From a virus, in IMG/VR virus record IMGVR_UViG_3300010157_000115, positions 1 through 41,024 of that record: a stretch of 41,024 nt of DNA; one strand, 5' to 3'. A program made the translations under genes and the position numbers. Under the pieces are notes generated by a model. That model saw nothing but the letters and a program-made list of their open reading frames with translations. It made no database searches and was not told the origin of the DNA. Below, piece after piece: positions 1 through 40,658 of the stretch (positions within the stretch are counted from its first letter, which is position 1; every line of letters starts with the position of its first letter).

Positions 1-291
1 ATGACTGAACATGACTGGTTTTGCAGATGCGTGGACTGCCTTGAGGCAAAACTTAAACAAGCCAACAAAGAAATAGTAATGCTGCGCAAAGTCTGTGACA
101 GTAAAAAACAACGCTGGATGCCTTTAAACGGAGACGAAGTTTTACGCTTGTGGGCGATATGCAAGATACCTGTTCATCTGGAAAAGCCAGATGACATTGG
201 TCATAGGTTTGCACGGGCGCTTAGTTTTGGTTTGCGTGAGGCTAACTATTATGCGTTTTGTATTGACGCAAGAGAGGAGCAGAACACATGA
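1..291 (+). CDS. small early phage protein, unknown function (possibly 5' partial)
   Basis: The 96-residue reading frame begins with the first three bases of the window, so the ATG may be an internal Met and the true start may lie upstream. I do not recognise the family. The N-terminal third has three Cys (CRCVDC at residues 8-13) followed by a short helical, Lys/Glu-rich stretch with heptad-like Leu/Val spacing. The rest contains the segment RFARALSFGLREANY, which looks helical. Its stop codon overlaps the ATG of the next gene (ATGA at 288-291), which is typical of coupled phage early genes. A small Cys pair could bind metal, but two closely spaced Cys-x-Cys and Cys alone do not make a recognisable zinc finger. 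Confidence 0.6.
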   Translation: MTEHDWFCRCVDCLEAKLKQANKEIVMLRKVCDSKKQRWMPLNGDEVLRLWAICKIPVHLEKPDDIGHRFARALSFGLREANYYAFCIDAREEQNT

Positions 292-659
292 GTTTCTGGC
301 GACCAGAGTACGCAAATATGGGCGGGTTAGGCGACCCAACAGCCCGTTATCCACAAGGGGGCACCACTACCGAGGAAGAAACCGTGACTAACGAAGAACT
401 ACGCGACAAGATGCTGGCGTACATTGAAACGCAAGATGGAAGCTATGACGATGAGTGGTACGCATCACCCCGAGACTTTGCAGCAACAATACTGACTGAC
501 TTTGCTGAGTACCTTGGAGTTGAGATAGTTGTGCCCGAGTACATCCCACAAGTAAAGAAGGCAGTGATTGACCGCAATGAATTGTTTAAAGAATTGCTTC
601 CCGGCATTCGCAATTTGTTTGACCTTGAATATAAAAAACGGACGGAGGGAGCGCCATGA
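288..659 (+). CDS. early protein with a C-terminal copy of the capsid N-terminal helix
   Basis: This is a 123-aa acidic protein of unknown function. Residues 34-85 form a mixed helical region (TNEELRDKML and DFAATILTDFAEYLG). Residues 95-120 carry RNELFKELLPGIRNLF and then DLEYKK. That stretch matches residues 4-29 of the major capsid protein of this same phage (RAQLLKELLPGLNALF, GLEYAKY) at about 15 of 26 positions, ungapped. The start overlaps the previous stop by 4 bp, and the next small gene overlaps this stop. An in-frame Met at residue 11 is an alternative start. The body resembles hypothetical early phage proteins. The tail suggests interaction with capsid protein or with whatever binds the capsid N-arm, which is inference only. 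Confidence 0.75.
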   Translation: MSFWRPEYANMGGLGDPTARYPQGGTTTEEETVTNEELRDKMLAYIETQDGSYDDEWYASPRDFAATILTDFAEYLGVEIVVPEYIPQVKKAVIDRNELFKELLPGIRNLFDLEYKKRTEGAP

Positions 660-820
660 GAGACAAGCGCATTGCCAAAGCAAAGCGGGTGGGTGAACCA
701 CTGGCAGTGGTCTACTGCATAAAGGTTACGCAAAGCCAGCGCATTGCACTGATGCGGCTTGGGCCACAGTGGTTACGTGAGCAGATAGATAAAGCTAAGA
801 AGGAAAACAATGGAACCTAA
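656..820 (+). CDS. short basic early protein (54 aa)
   Basis: A 54-codon gene starts at the ATG that overlaps the preceding TGA (ATGA) and ends in TAA at 818-820. GACGGAGGGAG just upstream is a good ribosome binding site. The product begins MRDKRIAKAKRVGEP and contains VTQSQRIALMRLGPQWLREQ. That second segment matches the style of a common small phage family (variants of V.LT..Q...L..LGG..WLR..I) that looks like a short helix-turn-helix or ribbon-helix-helix DNA-binding unit. Function is unknown. It lies in the same frame-overlap chain as its neighbours and overlaps the next start by 11 bp, which supports a real translated gene. Confidence 0.7.
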   Translation: MRDKRIAKAKRVGEPLAVVYCIKVTQSQRIALMRLGPQWLREQIDKAKKENNGT

Positions 821-995
821 AGACATGCCTAACTTTGCTTCATGGAGCAATAAGAACTTAGCGGACTTCTGCGCCGAGGCGTACATTCGTATGCAAGAGC
901 AGCAAGAAGCTATGGAGCAGCTACGACAGAACTGGAAAGACGCGATGGCAATAACGCGCAAATTAATGTTAAAGGATACCAATGACCGAACATGA
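810..995 (+). CDS. small helical early protein, unknown
   Basis: A 61-aa protein whose ATG lies within the end of the previous gene, with AAGAAGGAAAAC as ribosome binding site. Residues 16-56 (LADFCAEAYIRMQEQQEAME and onward) are predicted helical and could form a coiled coil with regularly spaced Leu/Met. There is no recognisable domain. It overlaps the next gene by 14 bp. It is probably a non-essential early protein acting on the host or on replication, but nothing in the sequence says which. Confidence 0.6.
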   Translation: MEPKDMPNFASWSNKNLADFCAEAYIRMQEQQEAMEQLRQNWKDAMAITRKLMLKDTNDRT

Positions 996-1191
996 ACAAA
1001 ACCTACGCGACTTGGCGTCAATGTTTGTAATGGCTGGGCTGCTGAGGAACAGCGAGATGACTGCGCTCGAAATTGTAGATAAGGCACATAAGGTCGCTGA
1101 CCTTTGGTTGGAAGCGCGTAACCCCACCCAAGAAGGTGGCATTGCCGACATAACAACCAAGAGGAAGTATGGACGAAAAGCCACTGATTAA
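982..1191 (+). CDS. small early protein, unknown
   Basis: A 69-aa protein (begins MTEHEQNLRDLASMFVMAGL) with a helical core (EMTALEIVDKAHKVADLWLE) and a basic C-terminus (TTKRKYGRKATD). The start MTEHEQ resembles that of the first protein in the window (MTEHDW), but the rest does not align. It overlaps both neighbours: the previous gene by 14 bp and the nuclease gene by 23 bp. The ribosome binding site is weak (AAAGGATACC). The family is common as an unannotated small protein in phage early regions, and no function can be assigned. Confidence 0.6.
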   Translation: MTEHEQNLRDLASMFVMAGLLRNSEMTALEIVDKAHKVADLWLEARNPTQEGGIADITTKRKYGRKATD

Positions 1192-1858
1192 ATACACATG
1201 GTCGTACTCTTCTCTTGATTTGTTTAAGCAGTGCCCTTACAAGTACTACCGATTGCGGGTTAAGAAAGATATTAAGGAGTCGCCCTCTACTCAGATGACC
1301 TATGGGTTGGAGGCGCACAAGGTTGCCGAGGAGTTTATAAGGGACGGAACCCCCATACCTGAGCAGTTTGCCTTTATGCGTGAGCCTCTTGAGCTACTCC
1401 GCAAGCGCGAAGGTAAACATCTTTGTGAGTACAAATTAGGAATAGACAGGAATTTCAATCCATGTGACTTCTATGATAAAGATGTTTGGTGGCGGGGCAT
1501 CGCTGACTTGATTATCTTGAAAGGTGACCGCGCCTTGGTTGTGGACTACAAGACAGGGAAGTCAAGCAAGTACGCTGACACTAAGCAGTTAGAGGTTCTG
1601 TCTCTTGCGGTGTTCAAGCATTTCCCCGAGGTAACAAGGGTGAAGGCGGGGCTGCTGTTCGTGGTCGCCAATGATTTTGTGCCCGCAGAGTTTCACGTGG
1701 AACAACAAGGAGTGTACTGGACACGTTGGATTGAGGACACCAATAGACTGGAGAAATCCATTGAGTTAGATGTATGGAACCCCCGGCCCAACTTTACCTG
1801 CAAAGGTTGGTGCCCGGTAAAAGATTGCGTGCATAATGGTAAAACTTCGTATCGTTAG
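1169..1858 (+). CDS. Cas4/RecB-like PD-(D/E)XK nuclease with putative Fe-S cluster
   Basis: A 229-aa single-domain nuclease of the PD-(D/E)XK (PDDEXK_1) superfamily. Visible motifs in order: SYSSLDLFKQCPYKYY (residues 12-27, the usual N-terminal motif with Cys22), His50 in GLEAH, Asp113 in RGIADLI, the catalytic D126-Y-K128 in VVDYKTGK, and the QLEVLSLAV motif with Gln140. Cys211, Cys215 and Cys220 at the C-terminus, together with Cys22, form the spacing seen in AddB/Cas4 nucleases that hold a 4Fe-4S cluster. It would cut or resect DNA, probably with the SNF2 helicase encoded downstream, during phage replication or recombination or in degrading host DNA. There are no cas genes nearby, so a CRISPR role is unlikely. 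AGAGGAAGT precedes the ATG. Confidence 0.9.
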   Translation: MDEKPLIKYTWSYSSLDLFKQCPYKYYRLRVKKDIKESPSTQMTYGLEAHKVAEEFIRDGTPIPEQFAFMREPLELLRKREGKHLCEYKLGIDRNFNPCDFYDKDVWWRGIADLIILKGDRALVVDYKTGKSSKYADTKQLEVLSLAVFKHFPEVTRVKAGLLFVVANDFVPAEFHVEQQGVYWTRWIEDTNRLEKSIELDVWNPRPNFTCKGWCPVKDCVHNGKTSYR

Positions 1859-22067: not shown

Positions 22068-22508
22068 TTAAGGCGTCACCGTGCCAACTGTTCCAGCGGC
22101 ACTAACCCCACTAATTGCAACAGATCTTGTTGGGATAACTGATCCAACTGCCCCTGAACTTGCTACGCCACCAGTAGGAGCACCAACCGCCCCAACCGAT
22201 CCGACTGCCCTAACGCCAGTAAGGAAAACCACATTAGATGCGGTTTTGATCCTAAGCATCTCGCTCCCTGCCTGAACACCATCCTGCGTATCCCGGTACA
22301 CATCCCCTAAGCGCAGATTGTTAAAGTCCGCATCTGTGGGTAGCGTCCGTAAGTCAAGGTTTAAGCTGGCTAGATTTAACTGTTGAACCGTATTAATTGT
22401 GTTGAAGAACAACCTAATTACGTTGCTCAATGAATTCATGTACGCCACATCGTACTGCGGCGGGGCTTGTGGGATATTCGGAGCAGACCGATTTTGAAGC
22501 ATTGCCAT
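22068..22508 (-). CDS. small virion/tail protein with GVxAxGxVGxV repeats
   Basis: A 146-aa protein. The N-terminal 75 residues look folded (MAMLQNRSAPNIPQAPPQYD, helix SLSNVIRLFFNTINTVQQLN, then LPTDADFNNLRLGDVYRDT), a family common next to the tail hub gene. Residues 95-146 are repeats of the form TGVRAVGSVGAV, SGAVGSV, SGVSAAGTVGTV. The same repeat builds most of the 233-aa protein at 32660-33361, 10 kb away. The 4-bp gap to the 707-aa gene upstream suggests co-translation. It may be a tail accessory attached to the hub, which is inference from position. Confidence 0.7.
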   Translation of the reverse strand: MAMLQNRSAPNIPQAPPQYDVAYMNSLSNVIRLFFNTINTVQQLNLASLNLDLRTLPTDADFNNLRLGDVYRDTQDGVQAGSEMLRIKTASNVVFLTGVRAVGSVGAVGAPTGGVASSGAVGSVIPTRSVAISGVSAAGTVGTVTP

Positions 22509-25980: not shown

Positions 25981-26151
25981 TTAGCGCCCAAATGTCAGAG
26001 AGGCGTAAACGATAGCGGACATACTGACGATCAAGACACCAGTGGTCTTCATAATCACGCCCTCAAGCCGCTTGAGCCGAGCATTGATCTGTGCATACCG
26101 TTCGGCACACACTGCCTCGTGAGAGGTAAACCGGATATCAATATCGCTCAT
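25981..26151 (-). CDS. 56-aa XhlA-like membrane protein, lysis cassette
   Basis: A 56-codon gene whose ATG overlaps the stop of the kinase-nucleotidyltransferase gene (26148-26151). The product starts MSDIDIRFTSHEAVCAERYA, continues QINARLKRLEGVIMK as a short amphipathic helix, then a membrane helix TGVLIVSMSAIVYASLTF and ends GR. The helix-before-TM layout and the FTSHEAVCAERY motif match a small phage family often annotated hemolysin XhlA-like or hypothetical membrane protein beside holins. It probably assists membrane disruption. Confidence 0.75.
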   Translation of the reverse strand: MSDIDIRFTSHEAVCAERYAQINARLKRLEGVIMKTTGVLIVSMSAIVYASLTFGR

Positions 26152-26990
26152 ACGCCCATCTTCTTTCTGATTTCAGTTGCGGAGATAGCGTGAGTGGCAG
26201 CGTCAAACACTTCCTGCTCAATCTTGTAGCCCACATCCCTGCCGTAAGTGATGTTCACCACATTTGGCACAAGCTGTATCTCGTACTGCCCTTGGTACAG
26301 GGGGTCTAGGTCACGCTTGATCAGGTCTTTCACCTGCTCTGCGGCAAAGGGGTTGGAGCCATTCCAGCCTTGGCAGTCCCTGATCTGGATGACCACTTGG
26401 CCCGTCTTGGCAATGGCCCGATCAAACAGGGCACGATGCCCCGGATGCCACGGTTGCCAGCGGCCTAGCATCTGCACGGTTTCCTTCTTCCAGTCAAACA
26501 CCGGGCGACGGCGGCTGTCTAGGATGTGCTGACCAATAAACTCGGCCCACTTCTCGGCGTTCTGCTCAGTGACTCGGAAGTCATATTCCTTCGGTGGAAT
26601 AAACGCTTTGTTGGTATCGTCAAACCTGCCCTGATCAATGGTGTCTACCCAGATCATCCAGTCAGCCTTGAAGTTGTTCCGCATCTCCACCAAGGGTGCT
26701 ACGAAGTCGCAGATCACAAAGTCGCCGGTAGACTTGAAGGCAAACTCGGCCATGCGTAAACTCTGACGGATGCGGCCCTCTTTACTGAAATCCCAATCAT
26801 TGAACCGCTTGCGGATGTCGTCAGCGTTGAACCAGTCCACGCTGCATTTGTAGGACTTAGGAACGTGTTCAGATGCCCGGTAAGCAGGCATATGCTTCAC
26901 ATCCGAGTTGCACTCAAGATACTTCTTCAGTGCGGTAGCAAGCGTCGTTTTGCCGCTACCCGGCAGACCCATGATCAGGATTTTTTTCAT
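26148..26990 (-). CDS. adenylylsulfate-kinase-like / HxGH nucleotidyltransferase fusion (putative mini PAPS synthetase)
   Basis: A 280-aa two-domain enzyme. Residues 1-160 are a P-loop kinase of the APS-kinase (CysC) type: MGLPGSGKTTLA (Lys14), the substrate region WFNADDIRKRFNDWDFSKEG (Asp57, Arg60), FVICDFVAPLVEMRNNF (93-107) and the late lid/KAF motif DDTNKAFIPPKEYDF. Residues 172-280 are a nucleotidyltransferase Rossmann domain with GRWQPWHPGHRALF (H182-P-G-H185), GSNPFAAEQ and ISATEIR (269-275). The order, APS kinase then HxGH transferase, is that of animal PAPS synthetases (HNGH motif), but the second domain is far shorter and its motifs look more like NMN/cytidylyl-transferases. The next gene upstream is a PAPS-type sulfotransferase, overlapping by 4 bp, so PAPS supply is the best hypothesis. 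NAD-related or other chemistry remains possible. Confidence 0.8.
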   Translation of the reverse strand: MKKILIMGLPGSGKTTLATALKKYLECNSDVKHMPAYRASEHVPKSYKCSVDWFNADDIRKRFNDWDFSKEGRIRQSLRMAEFAFKSTGDFVICDFVAPLVEMRNNFKADWMIWVDTIDQGRFDDTNKAFIPPKEYDFRVTEQNAEKWAEFIGQHILDSRRRPVFDWKKETVQMLGRWQPWHPGHRALFDRAIAKTGQVVIQIRDCQGWNGSNPFAAEQVKDLIKRDLDPLYQGQYEIQLVPNVVNITYGRDVGYKIEQEVFDAATHAISATEIRKKMGV

Positions 26991-27805
26991 TTGACTTTGT
27001 ACAGTTGTTTGACTGCAAACTCCGGTGCTGGCTTGCGCCAGAAATCTTTACCAGCGTACTTTTCCCACACTGACTTAGGCAGGATGGACGGGCGTTCTTG
27101 CCATGTTACCTCTTTGCGTACCGTGTGCAGGCTCTTCATGTTCAGCGCCTTATCAAACACTTCATTCTCGTACTCCACGTTTTTAAAGTCGTGGTCAAAG
27201 TATTGTTTACCAATGAACTGATACAACTCACGCATCACGCTTTGAGGCTGTTTGCAAAGCATCTCGTACTCCACCAGCATGATCATGTCGGGGTTCAGCA
27301 GTAGACCCTCTTCCAAGAAGTAATAGGGCTTGACCACTTGGCCCTCTTTCTTCACATCCATCAGGGCATCGCACCGGGTTGTGACTGTCTGCCTAGCTTC
27401 ATCGTCTGTTAGTGCCGCACCATACAAAGAGTTCTTAGCCGAGATACGCTCAAAGCTGTCCAGAATCCACGGCAAGTCACGCACACAGCAGATGATCTTG
27501 GTTTGTGGATAGAGGTCTTTCAGCAGTGATGTCTTGGCTGTCCAGCCCCGGCTGGTGTCAAACACCGTGTTCGGCGTGACGGCTTTGTAGTAAGCGTTGA
27601 TTACGTCTTTGAGTATCTGCTTGCGGCGATCTTCATCTATCAGGTGGTTGCTCTCACTGCCCGTGATGACGTTGATGGTCGAGGTGACCAAGCCTTGCAC
27701 GGGGGATGAGATGTCAGCGTAGAACTCAGGGTTCTGGCGCAGGATAGCCGACAGCAGGGTCGAGCCTGACCGTGGCAAACCAGAGATGAAGAAGAACTCT
27801 TTCAT
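26987..27805 (-). CDS. PAPS-dependent sulfotransferase
   Basis: A 272-aa sulfotransferase. The 5'-phosphosulfate loop is SGLPRSGSTLL (Gly9-Thr16). The 3'-phosphate-binding motif is CVRDLPWILDSFERI, with Arg109 and Ser117 at the usual 8-residue distance. Length and layout fit the Sulfotransfer family, which moves sulfate from PAPS to a hydroxyl or amine on sugars, lipids, peptides or small molecules. It acts in the host cytoplasm, since no signal or membrane segment is seen. It is coupled by 4-bp overlaps to the accessory fibre gene before it and the APS-kinase fusion after it. The acceptor is unknown; candidates are host surface glycans, LPS precursors or the neighbouring virion adhesins. Confidence 0.9.
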   Translation of the reverse strand: MKEFFFISGLPRSGSTLLSAILRQNPEFYADISSPVQGLVTSTINVITGSESNHLIDEDRRKQILKDVINAYYKAVTPNTVFDTSRGWTAKTSLLKDLYPQTKIICCVRDLPWILDSFERISAKNSLYGAALTDDEARQTVTTRCDALMDVKKEGQVVKPYYFLEEGLLLNPDMIMLVEYEMLCKQPQSVMRELYQFIGKQYFDHDFKNVEYENEVFDKALNMKSLHTVRKEVTWQERPSILPKSVWEKYAGKDFWRKPAPEFAVKQLYKVK

Positions 27806-28244: not shown

Positions 28245-29219
28245 TTAAACTGCTACTCTGCGGATGGCTCTAACGGCAGTGTTATAGGTTTTGTTGTAAT
28301 TAAATTGACCCCCAGTAACAAAATATTGACTACACGCAAAATAATCAGAAGCCTGCGTACTAGACCAATAATAAAAATTAATAACAAATTGTTCTGCACC
28401 TCCAGATTGAAAAGCTGTAGCAGAAGTTTGTGCTGGCGTTCCTGTTGTGTAGTTACTGGCCCGAGCAGGGACTGCGTTGGCGTTTACGCCGTATGAGGTG
28501 CTGTTACTTGCAGTAGTAGGTTTCAGGTTGTAGTAGCAGACTTCAAGTTCATTCTTTGCTGGCATATACCAGTCTGAAAAGCCGCCAGTAGAAACCGCTT
28601 CACAAAACTGTGCCGCAGGGTGACTAGCGTTGTTCATATTTGCGCTGTTTGTAGGCCCGTCAATGACCGAACTTGTACCAGAAGTTAATGTAGTTGTAGT
28701 TTTCCATTTTTTAGACGTATTTTGAGCAGAAGCAACAGGGCCAACTATTAAGTTGTAATCAGCAATGCTATTACCAGCGGTAGAAATTTGACCAGCATAA
28801 AAGCCGCCGCCATAAGCATCACCAATAGCCAAAGGACTTGCACTGTTTGATGCCGCACTTGCTGGCCCTGTACCGCCCGGCGTAGCAGCGGTAACTTTGA
28901 AAGTGTAAGCCGTACCCCCGCTTAAACCGCTAATCGTAATAGGAGACGCACCTGTTCCTGTCAAACTTCCGGGGGTTGATGTTGCAGTGTACGTAACAGT
29001 CCCCGTACCAAGGTCTGTAGGCGCAGTGTATGTCACTGTTGCAGAGCCTAGCCCAGCAGTAGCAGTCCCAATCGTAGGTGCGCCGGGGCTTCTGGGCCAG
29101 ATGCCTTGCTTCACATAGTTTGTTGCTTGGTCAAGCGTCCAGATACCTTTAGCTGACGAGGTTGTCGGGGCTGTTGGGTTCTGGGTGATGATGCCGCCGG
29201 GGAACTGTTTAATACTCAT
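28245..29219 (-). CDS. adhesin A: one FN3 domain plus C-terminal lectin-like (Lcl_C/DUF1566) domain
   Basis: A 324-aa putative receptor-binding protein. The N-terminus has an anchor-like segment KGIWTLDQATNYVKQGIWP. Residues 42-130 form a fibronectin type III domain (APTIGTATAGLGSATVTYTA to GLSGGTAYTFKVTA). Residues 131-324 are a lectin-like domain: GGGFYAGQISTAGNSIADYN, GGFSDWYMPAKNELEVCY, YYWSSTQ, VRAIRRVAV. This is the Legionella-collagen-like C-terminal/DUF1566 C-type-lectin fold used as a ligand-binding head. It is paralogous to the next two genes. Residues between WSST and VRAIR differ most from its paralogues, consistent with a binding face under selection. Confidence 0.8.
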   Translation of the reverse strand: MSIKQFPGGIITQNPTAPTTSSAKGIWTLDQATNYVKQGIWPRSPGAPTIGTATAGLGSATVTYTAPTDLGTGTVTYTATSTPGSLTGTGASPITISGLSGGTAYTFKVTAATPGGTGPASAASNSASPLAIGDAYGGGFYAGQISTAGNSIADYNLIVGPVASAQNTSKKWKTTTTLTSGTSSVIDGPTNSANMNNASHPAAQFCEAVSTGGFSDWYMPAKNELEVCYYNLKPTTASNSTSYGVNANAVPARASNYTTGTPAQTSATAFQSGGAEQFVINFYYWSSTQASDYFACSQYFVTGGQFNYNKTYNTAVRAIRRVAV

Positions 29220-29228
29220 GGCTGTTCC

Positions 29229-29894
29229 TTAGACTGCAACTCTGCGGATGGCACGAACATTGACAGCGTAGGTCTTATAGTATCCGCTTTGACCACCGCT
29301 ACCAAAACTCTCAAACCAACCGTATGTTGCGGAGTTTTCTGTACTTGACCAATAATAGTAAGAAGTAAATGCTTCTGCGCCCGTAGATGTCACAAAGGCA
29401 GCGGCTGATGTTTGGGCTGGATTACCAGAAGTGTAGTTACTTGCTCTAGCAGGGACAGCATTTGCATTTATTCCAAAACTAGTGTTATTAGCCCCAGTTG
29501 TTGGCTTTAAATTAAAGTAGCAGACATCCAACTCGTTTAAAGCGGGCATATACCAATCGTTAAAACCACCAGTAGTTACCGCTTTACAGAATGCTCCAGC
29601 AGGATTAGTTACGTTATTCATTGCCGCGCTGTTGGCGGGGCCGTTAATTAAGGAACTTGTTCCAGGGGTTGATGTGTTTACTATTTTCCATTGCTTGCTG
29701 GCATTTTGTGCAGAGGCTACTGGCCCTATAACTAAGTTGTAGTCCGCTATGCCATTACCCGCTGTAGAAATTTGACCAGCAAAATAACCACCACCATATA
29801 CCTGCCCAATTACAAGTGGTGGGTCAGGCCAAATGTTTTGACCCTTAGCTTGCATCTGCTGAGTGACTGTCCAGATTCCAGAAAAATTAGGCAT
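29229..29894 (-). CDS. adhesin B: lectin-like domain without FN3
   Basis: A 221-aa paralogue of the flanking adhesins. A short anchor (FSGIWTVTQQMQAKGQNIWP, similar to GIWTLDQ...GIWP of adhesin A) leads directly into the lectin-like domain (GGGYFAGQISTAGNGIADYN, GGFNDWYMPALNELDVCYF, YYYWSSTEN, VRAIRRVAV). No FN3 domain is present. The framework residues W-S-S-T, GGQ, KTY and VRAIR are kept, but the stretch between WSST and KTY is largely different from adhesin A at equal length. Its stop codon is fused with the ribosome binding site of adhesin A (TAAGGA). Confidence 0.8.
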   Translation of the reverse strand: MPNFSGIWTVTQQMQAKGQNIWPDPPLVIGQVYGGGYFAGQISTAGNGIADYNLVIGPVASAQNASKQWKIVNTSTPGTSSLINGPANSAAMNNVTNPAGAFCKAVTTGGFNDWYMPALNELDVCYFNLKPTTGANNTSFGINANAVPARASNYTSGNPAQTSAAAFVTSTGAEAFTSYYYWSSTENSATYGWFESFGSGGQSGYYKTYAVNVRAIRRVAV

Positions 29895-29902
29895 ACGTTT
29901 CC

Positions 29903-31105
29903 TTAGACTGCTACTCTGCGAATGGCGCGAATATAATGTGAATTGGTTTTATAAGGGTCATATACGTTTCCGTATGAAAAACCCTGTCTCCAAGCGCGAT
30001 CTGTATAAGGTGTAAATTGGGTACTAGACCAGTAAAATGGGCCAGATGAAGCAAATGCTTGTGAATTACTATCTTGAAAAATCGTTGCAGTAGTTTGTGC
30101 TGGATTGCCAGAAGTGTAAGTACTGGTTCTGGCTGGAACGGCATTTGCATTTATTCCAGAGCTAGTGTTGTTGGAAGCTGCGGTTGGTTTTAAATTAAAG
30201 TAGCAAACATCAAGTTCATTTTTGGCAGGGGAGTACCAGTCACTAAAACCGCCAACAGTCAAACCTTTGCAAAACTGTGCTGCTGGATGACTAGAATTAT
30301 TCATTGCCGTGCTGTTGGCAGGGCCGTCAATAAGCGAGGATGTTCCAGTTGTAGCTGAGTTTGATGTTTTATATTGTTTGCTGCTGTTTTGTGCTGAAGC
30401 TACTGGCCCAACAACCAAGTTATAGTCAGCAATGCTATTACCGGCGGTAGAAATTTGACCAGCAAAATAACCCCCTGCATAGGCCTGACCTATAGTTGGA
30501 AGCGTGGTTATTGAGTTACTTGCCGCACTAGCTGCGCTTGTTCCAATTGCATTGGTAGCCGTGACCGTGAACGTATAAGATGTCCCGCCAGTTAGTCCTG
30601 TGACCGTAATTGTTCCAGACCCTGCTTGGCTCAATGTGCCAGTAATTCCACTTGGGCTTGAGGTGGCTGTATAAGACGTAATTGTAGAACCGCCATCACT
30701 TGCTGGCGCTGTGTAAGAAACAGTCGCCGTTGTTGCGCCTGTAGAGGTCGCAGTGCCAATTGTAGGCGCACCGGGGACTGTAAGATTGGGGGTAACGCTA
30801 CCTGATGCAGAACTTAAAGGACTTGGGCCGTAAGCATTAGTTGCAAACACTTTAAATGTGTACGCCGTTCCGTTGGATAAGCCGCTTACAGTAACGGGAG
30901 AAGATGCGCCCGTGCCAATAATACCGCTTGGAGTTGAGACAACAGAGTACCCAGTAATAGCCCCGCCACCAACATCAGCAGGGGCGGTAAAAGTTACAGA
31001 AGCGGAGGAATTCCCACCCGTAGCCGTGCCAATCGTAGGGGCGTTAGCAACCTTCAGGGCGTTGTACCCCGGCAAGACAATACCAGCTTGATAGCGCATC
31101 GACAT
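29903..31105 (-). CDS. adhesin C: two FN3 domains plus lectin-like domain
   Basis: A 400-aa protein, the longest of the three adhesins. Residues 1-20 (MSMRYQAGIVLPGYNALKVA) are a separate N-terminal piece. Residues 21-108 and 109-205 are two FN3 repeats, each starting APTIGTAT and ending in a GTAYTFKV or GTSYTFTV strand. Residues 206-400 are the lectin-like domain (YAGGYFAGQISTAGNSIADY, GGFSDWYSPAKNELDVCYF, FYWSSTQ, IRAIRRVAV). It has RAIRR at the end like its paralogues but a one-residue longer, different ligand-face loop. As the first gene of the adhesin trio it may be the main host-range determinant, which is inference. Confidence 0.8.
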   Translation of the reverse strand: MSMRYQAGIVLPGYNALKVANAPTIGTATGGNSSASVTFTAPADVGGGAITGYSVVSTPSGIIGTGASSPVTVSGLSNGTAYTFKVFATNAYGPSPLSSASGSVTPNLTVPGAPTIGTATSTGATTATVSYTAPASDGGSTITSYTATSSPSGITGTLSQAGSGTITVTGLTGGTSYTFTVTATNAIGTSAASAASNSITTLPTIGQAYAGGYFAGQISTAGNSIADYNLVVGPVASAQNSSKQYKTSNSATTGTSSLIDGPANSTAMNNSSHPAAQFCKGLTVGGFSDWYSPAKNELDVCYFNLKPTAASNNTSSGINANAVPARTSTYTSGNPAQTTATIFQDSNSQAFASSGPFYWSSTQFTPYTDRAWRQGFSYGNVYDPYKTNSHYIRAIRRVAV

Positions 31106-32659: not shown

Positions 32660-33361
32660 TTACACAACCATCTCTACATCCGCCCAGTTTGGTGTTTGTG
32701 AATTGTTCACATTCTGCCAGTTTGGAACTTCGTTGTCATCTATTAGCGACCAATAAAAATCGTCTACGTTTCCAACGTTGCCCCTAGCTTGCACTCCGGT
32801 TATTGCAACCGCTAGGTTTGCCCCTACCGATCCAACCGCACCAGTAGCTTGAACACCGCTCTCAGTTGGGCTATTTGTCTCAGTAACATCTCCTACAGCC
32901 CCAGTAGCCGCAACCCCGGTTAGGGCAATTTGACGATCCGCAAGAACTACAGTGCCAACCGCTCCAGAAGCTGCAACTCCAGCAAGTGTTGGGCTAAAAG
33001 TAATATTTCCTACCGCCCCAGTAGCCGCAGCCCCTGTGAGCGCAATGCTTCTTGCTGCAACCGATACTGTACCAACCGAGCCAGTAGCTTCAACCCCGGT
33101 TAACGCCTTTGCTATTCCATTTGTAACTGTACCAACCGCCCCGGTAGCTTGAACCCCTGTAAGTGCAAAACTTCTACCAGCAACCGATACCGTCCCTACC
33201 GCCCCAGTAGCTTGAACCCCAGTTAAACTCGCTATTACAAGCGGGGTATAAACAACTGTCCCTACCGTGCCCGATGCTTGGACGCCGGTAAGGGCAACTA
33301 CTACCGTCTGCCCCGCAAGCGAGGCGAACGGCGCTTCGGCAAATGCGGAGATACCAAACAT
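32660..33361 (-). CDS. repetitive fibre-like protein with nine LTGVQATGAVGTV repeats
   Basis: A 233-aa protein built almost wholly of about nine 18-21-residue repeats with core LTGVQATGAVGTV (variants LTGVEATGSVGTV, LAGVAASGAVGTV, ITGVQARGNVGNV). The N-terminal MFGISAFAEAPFASLAG is a conserved cap. The C-terminus switches to an aromatic/acidic tail with a doubled PNW motif (EVPNWQNV, TPNWADVEMVV). Alternating small and Val residues predict a beta-solenoid or other stacked-strand rod. The same repeat forms the C-terminus of the protein at 22068-22508. It is probably a virion fibre or shaft. Confidence 0.7.
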   Translation of the reverse strand: MFGISAFAEAPFASLAGQTVVVALTGVQASGTVGTVVYTPLVIASLTGVQATGAVGTVSVAGRSFALTGVQATGAVGTVTNGIAKALTGVEATGSVGTVSVAARSIALTGAAATGAVGNITFSPTLAGVAASGAVGTVVLADRQIALTGVAATGAVGDVTETNSPTESGVQATGAVGSVGANLAVAITGVQARGNVGNVDDFYWSLIDDNEVPNWQNVNNSQTPNWADVEMVV

Positions 33362-39749: not shown

Positions 39750-40658
39750 TTAAGCACCGGCAGAGCCGTACATGCCCAGAGGATCAGACCAGCCGAAGCT
39801 GTAACGCTCACGGGACTTGTAGCGGACGTTGCCCGTGTCAAAGTCACCATCCATTGACTGAGCCAGTGGCGAACGCACAAAGTGCTTCATACCATTAGGC
39901 ACATCGGTGGTCAAGTACCAGCCGTTTGTGTCAGTCAGGAAGTGGTTAATGGTGTAGCCATCGGGGATGGAACCATTGTTCTTCAATGCGTTGATGTCGT
40001 TGTCAGCAGTAGACACGCGCAGTTCAGTCTCCAGCAAACGAGTTGCCGTGAACTGCAACGCGGGCGGAACAACCAACTTCTTAGGCTTAGCAGCGATCAG
40101 CAGACCGCGCTCATCTGTCCACAAGCTAATCTGAATAACGGCGTTCTCAAGAGAAGTCTCATTCAGGTCGGCAGGGGTAGAAGGAATGTTGCTGTTGGTG
40201 CCACCAGAAACCAGCGGATGCGATGCGCTAAACAAAGCGACACCATCACCACCAGCGTAGGCATTGCTGAAGCCGTTGTTTAGAACAGCAGCAGCTTTAA
40301 CTTGCTTGGTGTAAGCCATAGCACGAGCCAGAGCTTTGGTGTACCGAGCGGACAACGAGTCATACAAGTTGTCTTCGATTGCCTCTTCCGTCAGGGAGAA
40401 GCCCAAAGCAATGGTTTCGTGGTTGTATCGGGCAGTCCATGCTTCTTGCGCATTGTCATAAGCAATGGCAGAACCCTCGTTTTTAACGGGGGCAGCAGAG
40501 AAACCAGACAGTTTCGTTTCTTCTTCAAAGCTACGCTCAGAGGTTTCGGTTTCATAAATCTCTTTATGCTCCTCACCATATTTTGCGTATTCCAGACCAA
40601 ACAAAGCGTTCAGGCCGGGGAGAAGTTCTTTAAGTAGTTGTGCGCGTGAAATAGCCAT
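39750..40658 (-). CDS. major capsid protein (HK97 fold)
   Basis: A 302-aa phage capsid protein. The N-arm MAISRAQLLKELLPGLNALF, then GLEYAKYGEEHKEIYETETS, is typical of this capsid family. Then comes a core with YNHETIALGFSLTEEAIEDN (spine helix region), AYTKQVKAAAVLNNGF, ALFSASHPLVSGG, SLWTDERGLLIAAKPKKLVV and the C-terminal strand region GNVRYKSRERYSFGWSDPLG. It assembles the head shell. The N-terminal helix is not preceded by a visible separate scaffold or protease gene in the window. TAAGGAGCTAAATC is the ribosome site, and a strong terminator follows. The N-arm is closely matched by the C-terminus of the early protein at 288-659. Confidence 0.93.
   Translation of the reverse strand: MAISRAQLLKELLPGLNALFGLEYAKYGEEHKEIYETETSERSFEEETKLSGFSAAPVKNEGSAIAYDNAQEAWTARYNHETIALGFSLTEEAIEDNLYDSLSARYTKALARAMAYTKQVKAAAVLNNGFSNAYAGGDGVALFSASHPLVSGGTNSNIPSTPADLNETSLENAVIQISLWTDERGLLIAAKPKKLVVPPALQFTATRLLETELRVSTADNDINALKNNGSIPDGYTINHFLTDTNGWYLTTDVPNGMKHFVRSPLAQSMDGDFDTGNVRYKSRERYSFGWSDPLGMYGSAGA

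Follow-up and report, generated by a model that had tools for sequence, protein, structure and literature searches.

Apparent copies of capsid-assembly segments in small early-locus proteins of uncultured phages

Mimicry of assembly contacts is already known from satellites and retrotransposons. The 72-amino-acid protein CpmB of the satellite SaPI1 uses the scaffold's C-terminal motif to outcompete scaffold at the N-terminal arm (N-arm) of the coat protein and redirect assembly (PMC5644958), and the capsid-size redirectors CpmB and, from SaPIpT1028, Rcm are both small helical proteins (PMC5644958, PMC12409344). In phage 80alpha, a C-terminal helix and hook of the scaffold touch the coat N-arm helix (PMC5644958), and in P22 two C-terminal scaffold helices bind the coat N-arm, residues 2-30, which is helical in the procapsid (PMC9965877). 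The retrotransposon Ty1 controls its copy number with p22/p18, a partial capsid-derived protein that the element itself produces (PMC4599808, PMC8458377). The internal proteins IPI-IPIII of T4, otherwise unrelated, have in common a capsid targeting sequence of 10 residues; on infection they are ejected into the host (PMC9026906). Here, a viral stretch of 41,024 nt (IMG/VR record IMGVR_UViG_3300010157_000115, positions 1 to 41,024; the whole stretch is called the window, and its positions are used throughout) was analyzed for a small gene at 288-659, whose product ends in a segment resembling the N-arm of the major capsid protein (MCP) encoded in the same window. The protein is presumably early, given the position of its gene beside exonuclease, helicase and DUF927 genes.

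Comparison of homologues indicates that the tail of this protein reproduces the N-terminal segment of the MCP and is conserved, and that its gene is one of a larger group of small genes copying head-assembly segments. The window protein resembles CpmB and Rcm in being small and predicted helical, and two relatives, L180 (gene 2) and L014 (one open reading frame, ORF), appear to copy the scaffold C-terminus as CpmB does. This motif was found in L180, L190 and L014; in window gene 656-820 the letters TQSQ are attractive by eye, and with a phmmer E of 16 no scaffold-end copy is claimed there. Unlike CpmB, the window protein copies the coat side and not the scaffold side, the copying extends to several MCP segments, the copies are not known to affect capsid size, and the genes lie in the phage's own replication block and not in a satellite, since the window and contigs G002, G014, G059 and G063 carry their own MCP. 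As in T4, a short peptide linked to head assembly is common to otherwise unrelated small proteins, whereas in the present phages that peptide doubles as the MCP N-terminus and may be N- or C-terminal. As in Ty1, early small genes hold segments derived from the element's own capsid protein, although as separate, diverged short genes. A change in capsid size or yield marks CpmB-like redirectors, packaging in the virion and cleavage of the peptide by the prohead protease mark the T4 proteins, and trans-dominant inhibition of particle assembly marks the Ty1 p22 type. The prophage tail-assembly blocker Tab is likewise phage-encoded and acts on how a competing phage assembles its virions; it targets the tail (tape measure) and is expressed from the prophage together with its own counter-protein, and its abstract reports no mimicry of the target (PMC10884400). 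No earlier description of copies of the present kind was found in the open-access literature searched.

The early-protein tail and the capsid N-arm

The features of the window on which the comparison rests are as follows.

288..659, + strand: early ORF, 123 aa; ATG at 288, with ATGA overlaps with the preceding ORF (1-291) and the next gene (656)
384..566, + strand: conserved core of the early protein, starting at GTG 384 as in all homologues; from alignments
567..647, + strand: tail, apparent copy of MCP residues 3-29 (N-arm helix); from sequence comparison and predicted helix
39750..40658, - strand: MCP of the Mu gpT / Phage_capsid_4 type, 302 aa; Pfam PF25209, phrog_371
40572..40652, - strand: N-terminal segment of the MCP (residues 3-29), putative source of the early-protein copy; nearly invariant in 80 relatives
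656..820, + strand: following small gene (54 aa) with an ATGA overlap; included for context
1169..1858, + strand: PD-(D/E)XK exonuclease, anchor of the slot holding the relatives' capsid-segment arrays; Pfam PF12705 E 7.8e-16, and synteny

Early residues 94-119 (IDRNELFKELLPGIRNLFDLEYKKRT) and MCP residues 3-28 (ISRAQLLKELLPGLNALFGLEYAKYG) are identical at 15 of 26 positions without gaps, the identities including KELLPG, LF and LEY. The initial annotation had reported about this identity between genes on opposite strands, and both statements hold (+ versus -), with the residue numbering shifted by one. The Smith-Waterman score of the two proteins was 74, compared with a mean of 31 (SD 4.9, maximum 62) in 5000 shuffles, and when the early protein was searched against the record containing the window, the MCP N-terminus was the sole other match (E 1.8e-4). 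Given that the pair was selected out of a whole window, such a value is just moderately rare, and the decisive evidence therefore comes from homologues in other genomes.

These homologues begin at the codon matching GTG 384, and the true early protein is therefore probably 91 aa long; the first 32 residues of the 123-aa ORF were found only in the window and in a 95% identical relative (L001). An AlphaFold2 model of the protein (pLDDT 74.8) has helices at 3-16, 29-44 and 64-88, the tail being predicted as the single helix 64-88 of the 91-aa form. The core matched no significant family in Pfam or PHROGs, and Foldseek against viral models gave nothing significant for the fold. The MCP was assigned to the Mu gpT / Phage_capsid_4 type by PF25209 (E 8.7e-15 over residues 30-297) and phrog_371 (E 3.4e-22); its sequence found no match in the PDB, and its AlphaFold2 model (pLDDT 39.6) was too low in confidence and was not used for a fold search.

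Besides the window, the early protein (hereafter class A, core plus N-arm tail) was found in 19 contigs, 18 from IMG/VR searches for the core and one, L168, by pattern; L018 was discarded as not homologous and L181 as a chance pattern match. All relatives bearing class A genes or the arrays described below are uncultured contigs, and no relative of the class A core was found in bacterial genomes. Loss of the tail from homologues, which the initial annotation had named as evidence against a meaningful copy, did not appear: the tail is kept in 19 of 19, the two most divergent proteins (L016 and L017) keeping the first half only (NRAELLKELMP...). Tails range from KELLPGIRNLFDLEY in the window, through KALMPQISTLFDIEY, to SRQEILEALKPGLKTLFGMEYKKY in L133, and they match the MCP at differing positions, which would be unexpected if the match in the window were a lucky variant. 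Mean pN/pS was 0.32 for the tail versus 0.26 for the core, values that indicate constraint on the tail by purifying selection.

Specificity was assessed with a tail profile of 11 homologues from which the window and its three closest relatives had been left out. Against 22,568 ORFs this profile matched the MCP N-terminus with up to 25 bits (E 1.4e-5), the best unrelated ORF reaching E 2.1 and the best reversed ORF E 0.15. In 2.3 Gb of phage records, tblastn with the tail returned seven records at E<=10, all of them N-termini of this MCP family, as were 9 of the 10 matches of the divergent L133 protein; the MCPs of this clade are near-identical and were counted as one observation. Chance resemblance of two amphipathic helices has one point in its favor, namely that a profile including the tail matched yeast flavocytochrome b2 in the PDB at E 0.0065, a chance-like hit which means that single similarities of such size can be luck. 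By contrast, the match to the MCP survives removal of the window and recurs from independent homologues, the tail profile found nothing meaningful in the PDB, other MCP segments accompany the N-arm in relatives (E 6e-12 and 2e-8), and reversed controls gave no match below E 0.1. Coincidence is thus refuted for practical purposes, and on sequence grounds the tail genuinely reproduces the N-terminal segment of the MCP and is conserved.

This MCP is present in every early-bearing record that extends into the head genes: the window, G002, G014, G059, G063, G042, G045 and, with a cut gene, G011 and G062. Ten early-bearing records without an MCP were checked, and in four of them (G058, G068, G073, G003) a closely related portal gene lies near the contig end, so that the break falls before the MCP; contigs that carry the N-arm and show no MCP are fragments. 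The linkage to one capsid family that the initial annotation proposed to check is therefore found wherever it can be seen, and the unrelated carriers of the motif are phages of this same MCP clade, no carrier free of capsid linkage being met. No N-arm copy was found in several long MCP-bearing records, nor in cultured Planktothrix, Pelagibacter, Roseobacter and Alcaligenes phages, which makes the trait accessory in the clade and not essential.

Capsid and scaffold segments on other small proteins

Degenerate DNA scans of IMG/VR for the tail motif, built to avoid MCPs (an LFD form, and an LFG form lacking Asn), yielded 26 MCPs along with a number of other small proteins. The N-arm segment occurs in proteins of 50-57 aa, e.g. 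MAITRAQLLKEIMPGLNALFDIEYAKHNQELFGIELNMDEYTVEVDFDEKS (L176) and MISRKDLLKELLPGLNALFDLEYSKFGAEIF... (L180), at the C-terminus of unrelated cores (L183/L189, L172, L139), in L169, in a 119-aa ORF of record G042 and, N-terminally, in record G045, so that at least eight protein architectures bear it at one terminus or the other. L133 and L139 have a common N-terminal domain (LREAAELALKAIEQGETFGYLENVVAPTLEAAL) and both have the tail, the class A core being missing in L139. From these comparisons, the N-arm module appears portable between proteins. Searches of Pfam and PHROGs with the cores of the relatives' small proteins gave nothing significant, with the exception of a weak match of L180 gene 4 to phrog_371, major head protein (E 0.04).

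This distribution bears on the chief rival of the assembly-contact mimicry considered below, in which the N-arm segment would be a capsid-targeting tag and the small proteins would enter the procapsid by riding on the scaffold, so that the virion would carry them and deliver them when it next infects a cell. A segment of about 25 residues at either end of at least eight unrelated small proteins, and its retention with a common N-terminal domain in L133 and L139 though the class A core is in one only, would suit a tag, for which the T4 targeting sequence is a precedent. However, the array proteins of 50-55 aa have no cargo besides the segment, a targeting role is not obvious for the copies of MCP 72-133 and 163-213, and proteins so targeted would be expected with the head genes, yet these are located in the replication block. 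Targeting is hence a serious rival that we nevertheless consider rather unlikely.

One to several tiny overlapping genes occupy the slot immediately upstream of the relatives' PD-(D/E)XK exonuclease gene, as seen by synteny in L016, L017, L150, L171, L176, L180, L190, L218, L223 and L225. A profile from 65 MCPs was run against 35,295 ORFs and its non-MCP matches below E 0.8 were early small ORFs only, besides L198, an MCP cut by a contig end. An L223 ORF appears as a copy of MCP 72-132 (E 6e-12), ORFs of L176 and L177 as copies of MCP 90-133 (E 4e-5 and 7e-5), and ORFs of L150, L176, L190, L180 and L171 as N-arm copies (E 2e-8 to 2e-7). L180 gene 4 resembles MCP 163-213 at E 0.07 (KLIVPPYLESLAQQIL versus KLVVPPALQFTATRLL), and an ORF just downstream of the class A gene of L002 matches MCP 161-200 at E 0.5. 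In the phage collection, the L223 protein matched 12 records, all 12 of this MCP family (best E 3e-6), and the L176 protein matched nine of these 12 (best E 1e-5); L180 gene 4 gave four matches, all weak, of which three were to major head proteins from Mu-like phages. Small ORFs of contig G081 resemble the MCP C-terminus (SARYSFGWTDPRG) and MCP 53-72 (GSAPIRQEGSAVSYDD), each marginally. In L254, at 932-1355 (reverse complement), two adjoining small ORFs have starts resembling the MCP C-terminus (MSARYSFGWTDPRG) and MCP 53-72 (FFGSAPIRQEGSAVSYDDS).

A gene of about 325 aa upstream of the MCP gene is the putative scaffold, judging from its position and coiled-coil-like sequence, and its C-terminus reads KIKLKQSQ..LAKKLGLTPEQYA. 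By profile, the same terminus is seen again in array gene 2 of L180 (E 7e-9), in L190 (E 9e-5) and in a small L014 ORF lying shortly downstream of the class A gene (E 1.6e-8), with nothing below E 3.9 in reversed controls; tblastn did not find a scaffold-end copy in the phage collection, so that scaffold copying rests on the profile. The end of a gene of about 155 aa between scaffold and MCP (NDPRMPLF.EK) is echoed weakly by several array proteins (KDDPRMPVFAEKP, best E 0.02). When 35 late-gene families were compared with 5,784 short early-locus ORFs, the copied families were the MCP, the scaffold and the gene between them, and no others; the remaining matches were weak, or came from full homologues or from a portal gene truncated at the end of its contig. 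A tail-fibre-like resemblance of one L225 ORF was too weak and was rejected. The copying thus appears to reach beyond the N-terminal helix noted initially, to other MCP segments and the scaffold C-terminus. Among the initial explanations, a captured or shared capsid segment is the part that stands, the tail being conserved under purifying selection and the relatives' copies lying beside undoubted MCP segments; assembly control and packaging are graded here as possible roles.

The arrays have a distinctive construction. L180 4046-4663 and L225 2200-3245 (both reverse complement) contain four and six tiny overlapping genes, respectively, each ending in a near-identical ribosome-binding-site/start cassette (TATGARATTGAGGTNGAYTTTGA, translated YEIEVDF). 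The codons of YEIEVDFD coincide with a Shine-Dalgarno (GAGGT) and the start of the next gene, e.g. TATGAGATTGAGGTAGATTTTGACTAAG followed by TTG ACT AAG, and the peptide was therefore rejected as a protein tag in favor of translational coupling. As a coupling cassette it may aid shuffling, of which the L180 and L225 loci are likely a site. Such a locus could also accumulate by-products of recombination, i.e. head-operon fragments copied into a slot that is translationally coupled and prone to recombination, where they would persist with little function. The donors are indeed adjoining head genes, the repeated cassette could promote shuffling, and arrays differ between phages. Nevertheless, every copy is in the reading frame and orientation of the MCP or scaffold, the same segments recur in many contigs, and pN/pS of the class A tail is about 0.3 across deep divergence, all of which makes a functionless relic improbable.

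Possible roles of the copies

Since a scaffold C-terminus binds the coat N-arm in both 80alpha and P22, mimicry of procapsid-assembly contacts is the most likely of the roles considered, and we favor it tentatively, at somewhat less than even confidence. An N-arm copy made before the MCP would occupy the coat-binding end of the scaffold, and a copy of the scaffold end would occupy the MCP N-arm. The window protein would, via its tail, compete with the MCP for the scaffold end, and scaffold-end copies would compete the opposite way. Confronted with mimic peptides, the authentic partners might have shell assembly delayed, tuned or blocked, and the target could be the phage's own capsid, for control of timing and nucleation, or the capsid of co-infecting relatives or satellites.

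Several observations weigh against this interpretation. MCP 163-213 and 72-133, placed on the fold from family knowledge, are not obvious scaffold contacts, and the MCP model has the low pLDDT given above. The window holds an N-arm copy only, its next gene being not convincingly scaffold-like, and about half of the long MCP-bearing records have no detectable N-arm copy. The MCP N-terminus is nearly invariant, so that a match of the copy to its own MCP and one to a competitor's are indistinguishable. Lastly, N-arm copies on unrelated cores would suit capsid targeting equally well.

Alternatively, the copies could be decoys that occupy a bacterial sensor for segments of capsid or scaffold in advance of the authentic proteins. 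Early location and the presence of several MCP segments would suit several sensor epitopes, and structural proteins are known triggers, as with DSR2, which recognises tail tube protein and against which a phage protein acts (PMC11087589). By contrast, neither a defence gene nor a host is known for these phages, and scaffold-end copies would require a second sensor. A decoy is distinctly improbable and, like a functionless relic, less likely than a targeting tag.

Assembly-contact mimicry may be extended to a modular locus of tiny genes, each showing another segment of the phage's own head proteins, which would provide phage-encoded, trans-acting assembly control or interference against relatives or satellites and would evolve by shuffling short coupled cassettes. 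This extension is possible, though doubtful. If phages do mimic several of their own head parts from the replication block, this would point to an undescribed layer of control, competition or counter-defence around capsid assembly. The MCP N-arm segment outside MCP genes is a sequence signature searchable in other phage clades, and the short peptides are candidates for direct trials as assembly inhibitors or packaging tags.

Other observations on the window and on capsid loci

A protein encoded at window 26148-27805 (-) is APS-kinase-like and nucleotidyltransferase-like (PF01583 E 2e-8) and its gene adjoins that of a sulfotransferase (PF13469 E 4e-17), the two being a possible phage sulfation pair. 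Window 28245-31105 (-) encodes a tandem paralogue set, three consecutive tail-type proteins with the same Lcl_C domain at their ends, two of which also have fn3 domains. The protein at 32660-33361 (-) contains the repeat GVQATGAVGTV many times over, and a similar form ends the distant 22068-22508 (-) protein.

The 65.5-kb contig of record G031 (L255, L256) has a complete MCP gene at 1128-2030 and a second, non-identical one cut by the other end; the two agree at 218 of 225 aa and 624 of 675 nt, and represent either two MCP genes or a strain-mixed assembly. In the related cultured phages L126, L127, L128 and L129, a gene for a GroES-like co-chaperonin lies just upstream of those for scaffold and MCP.
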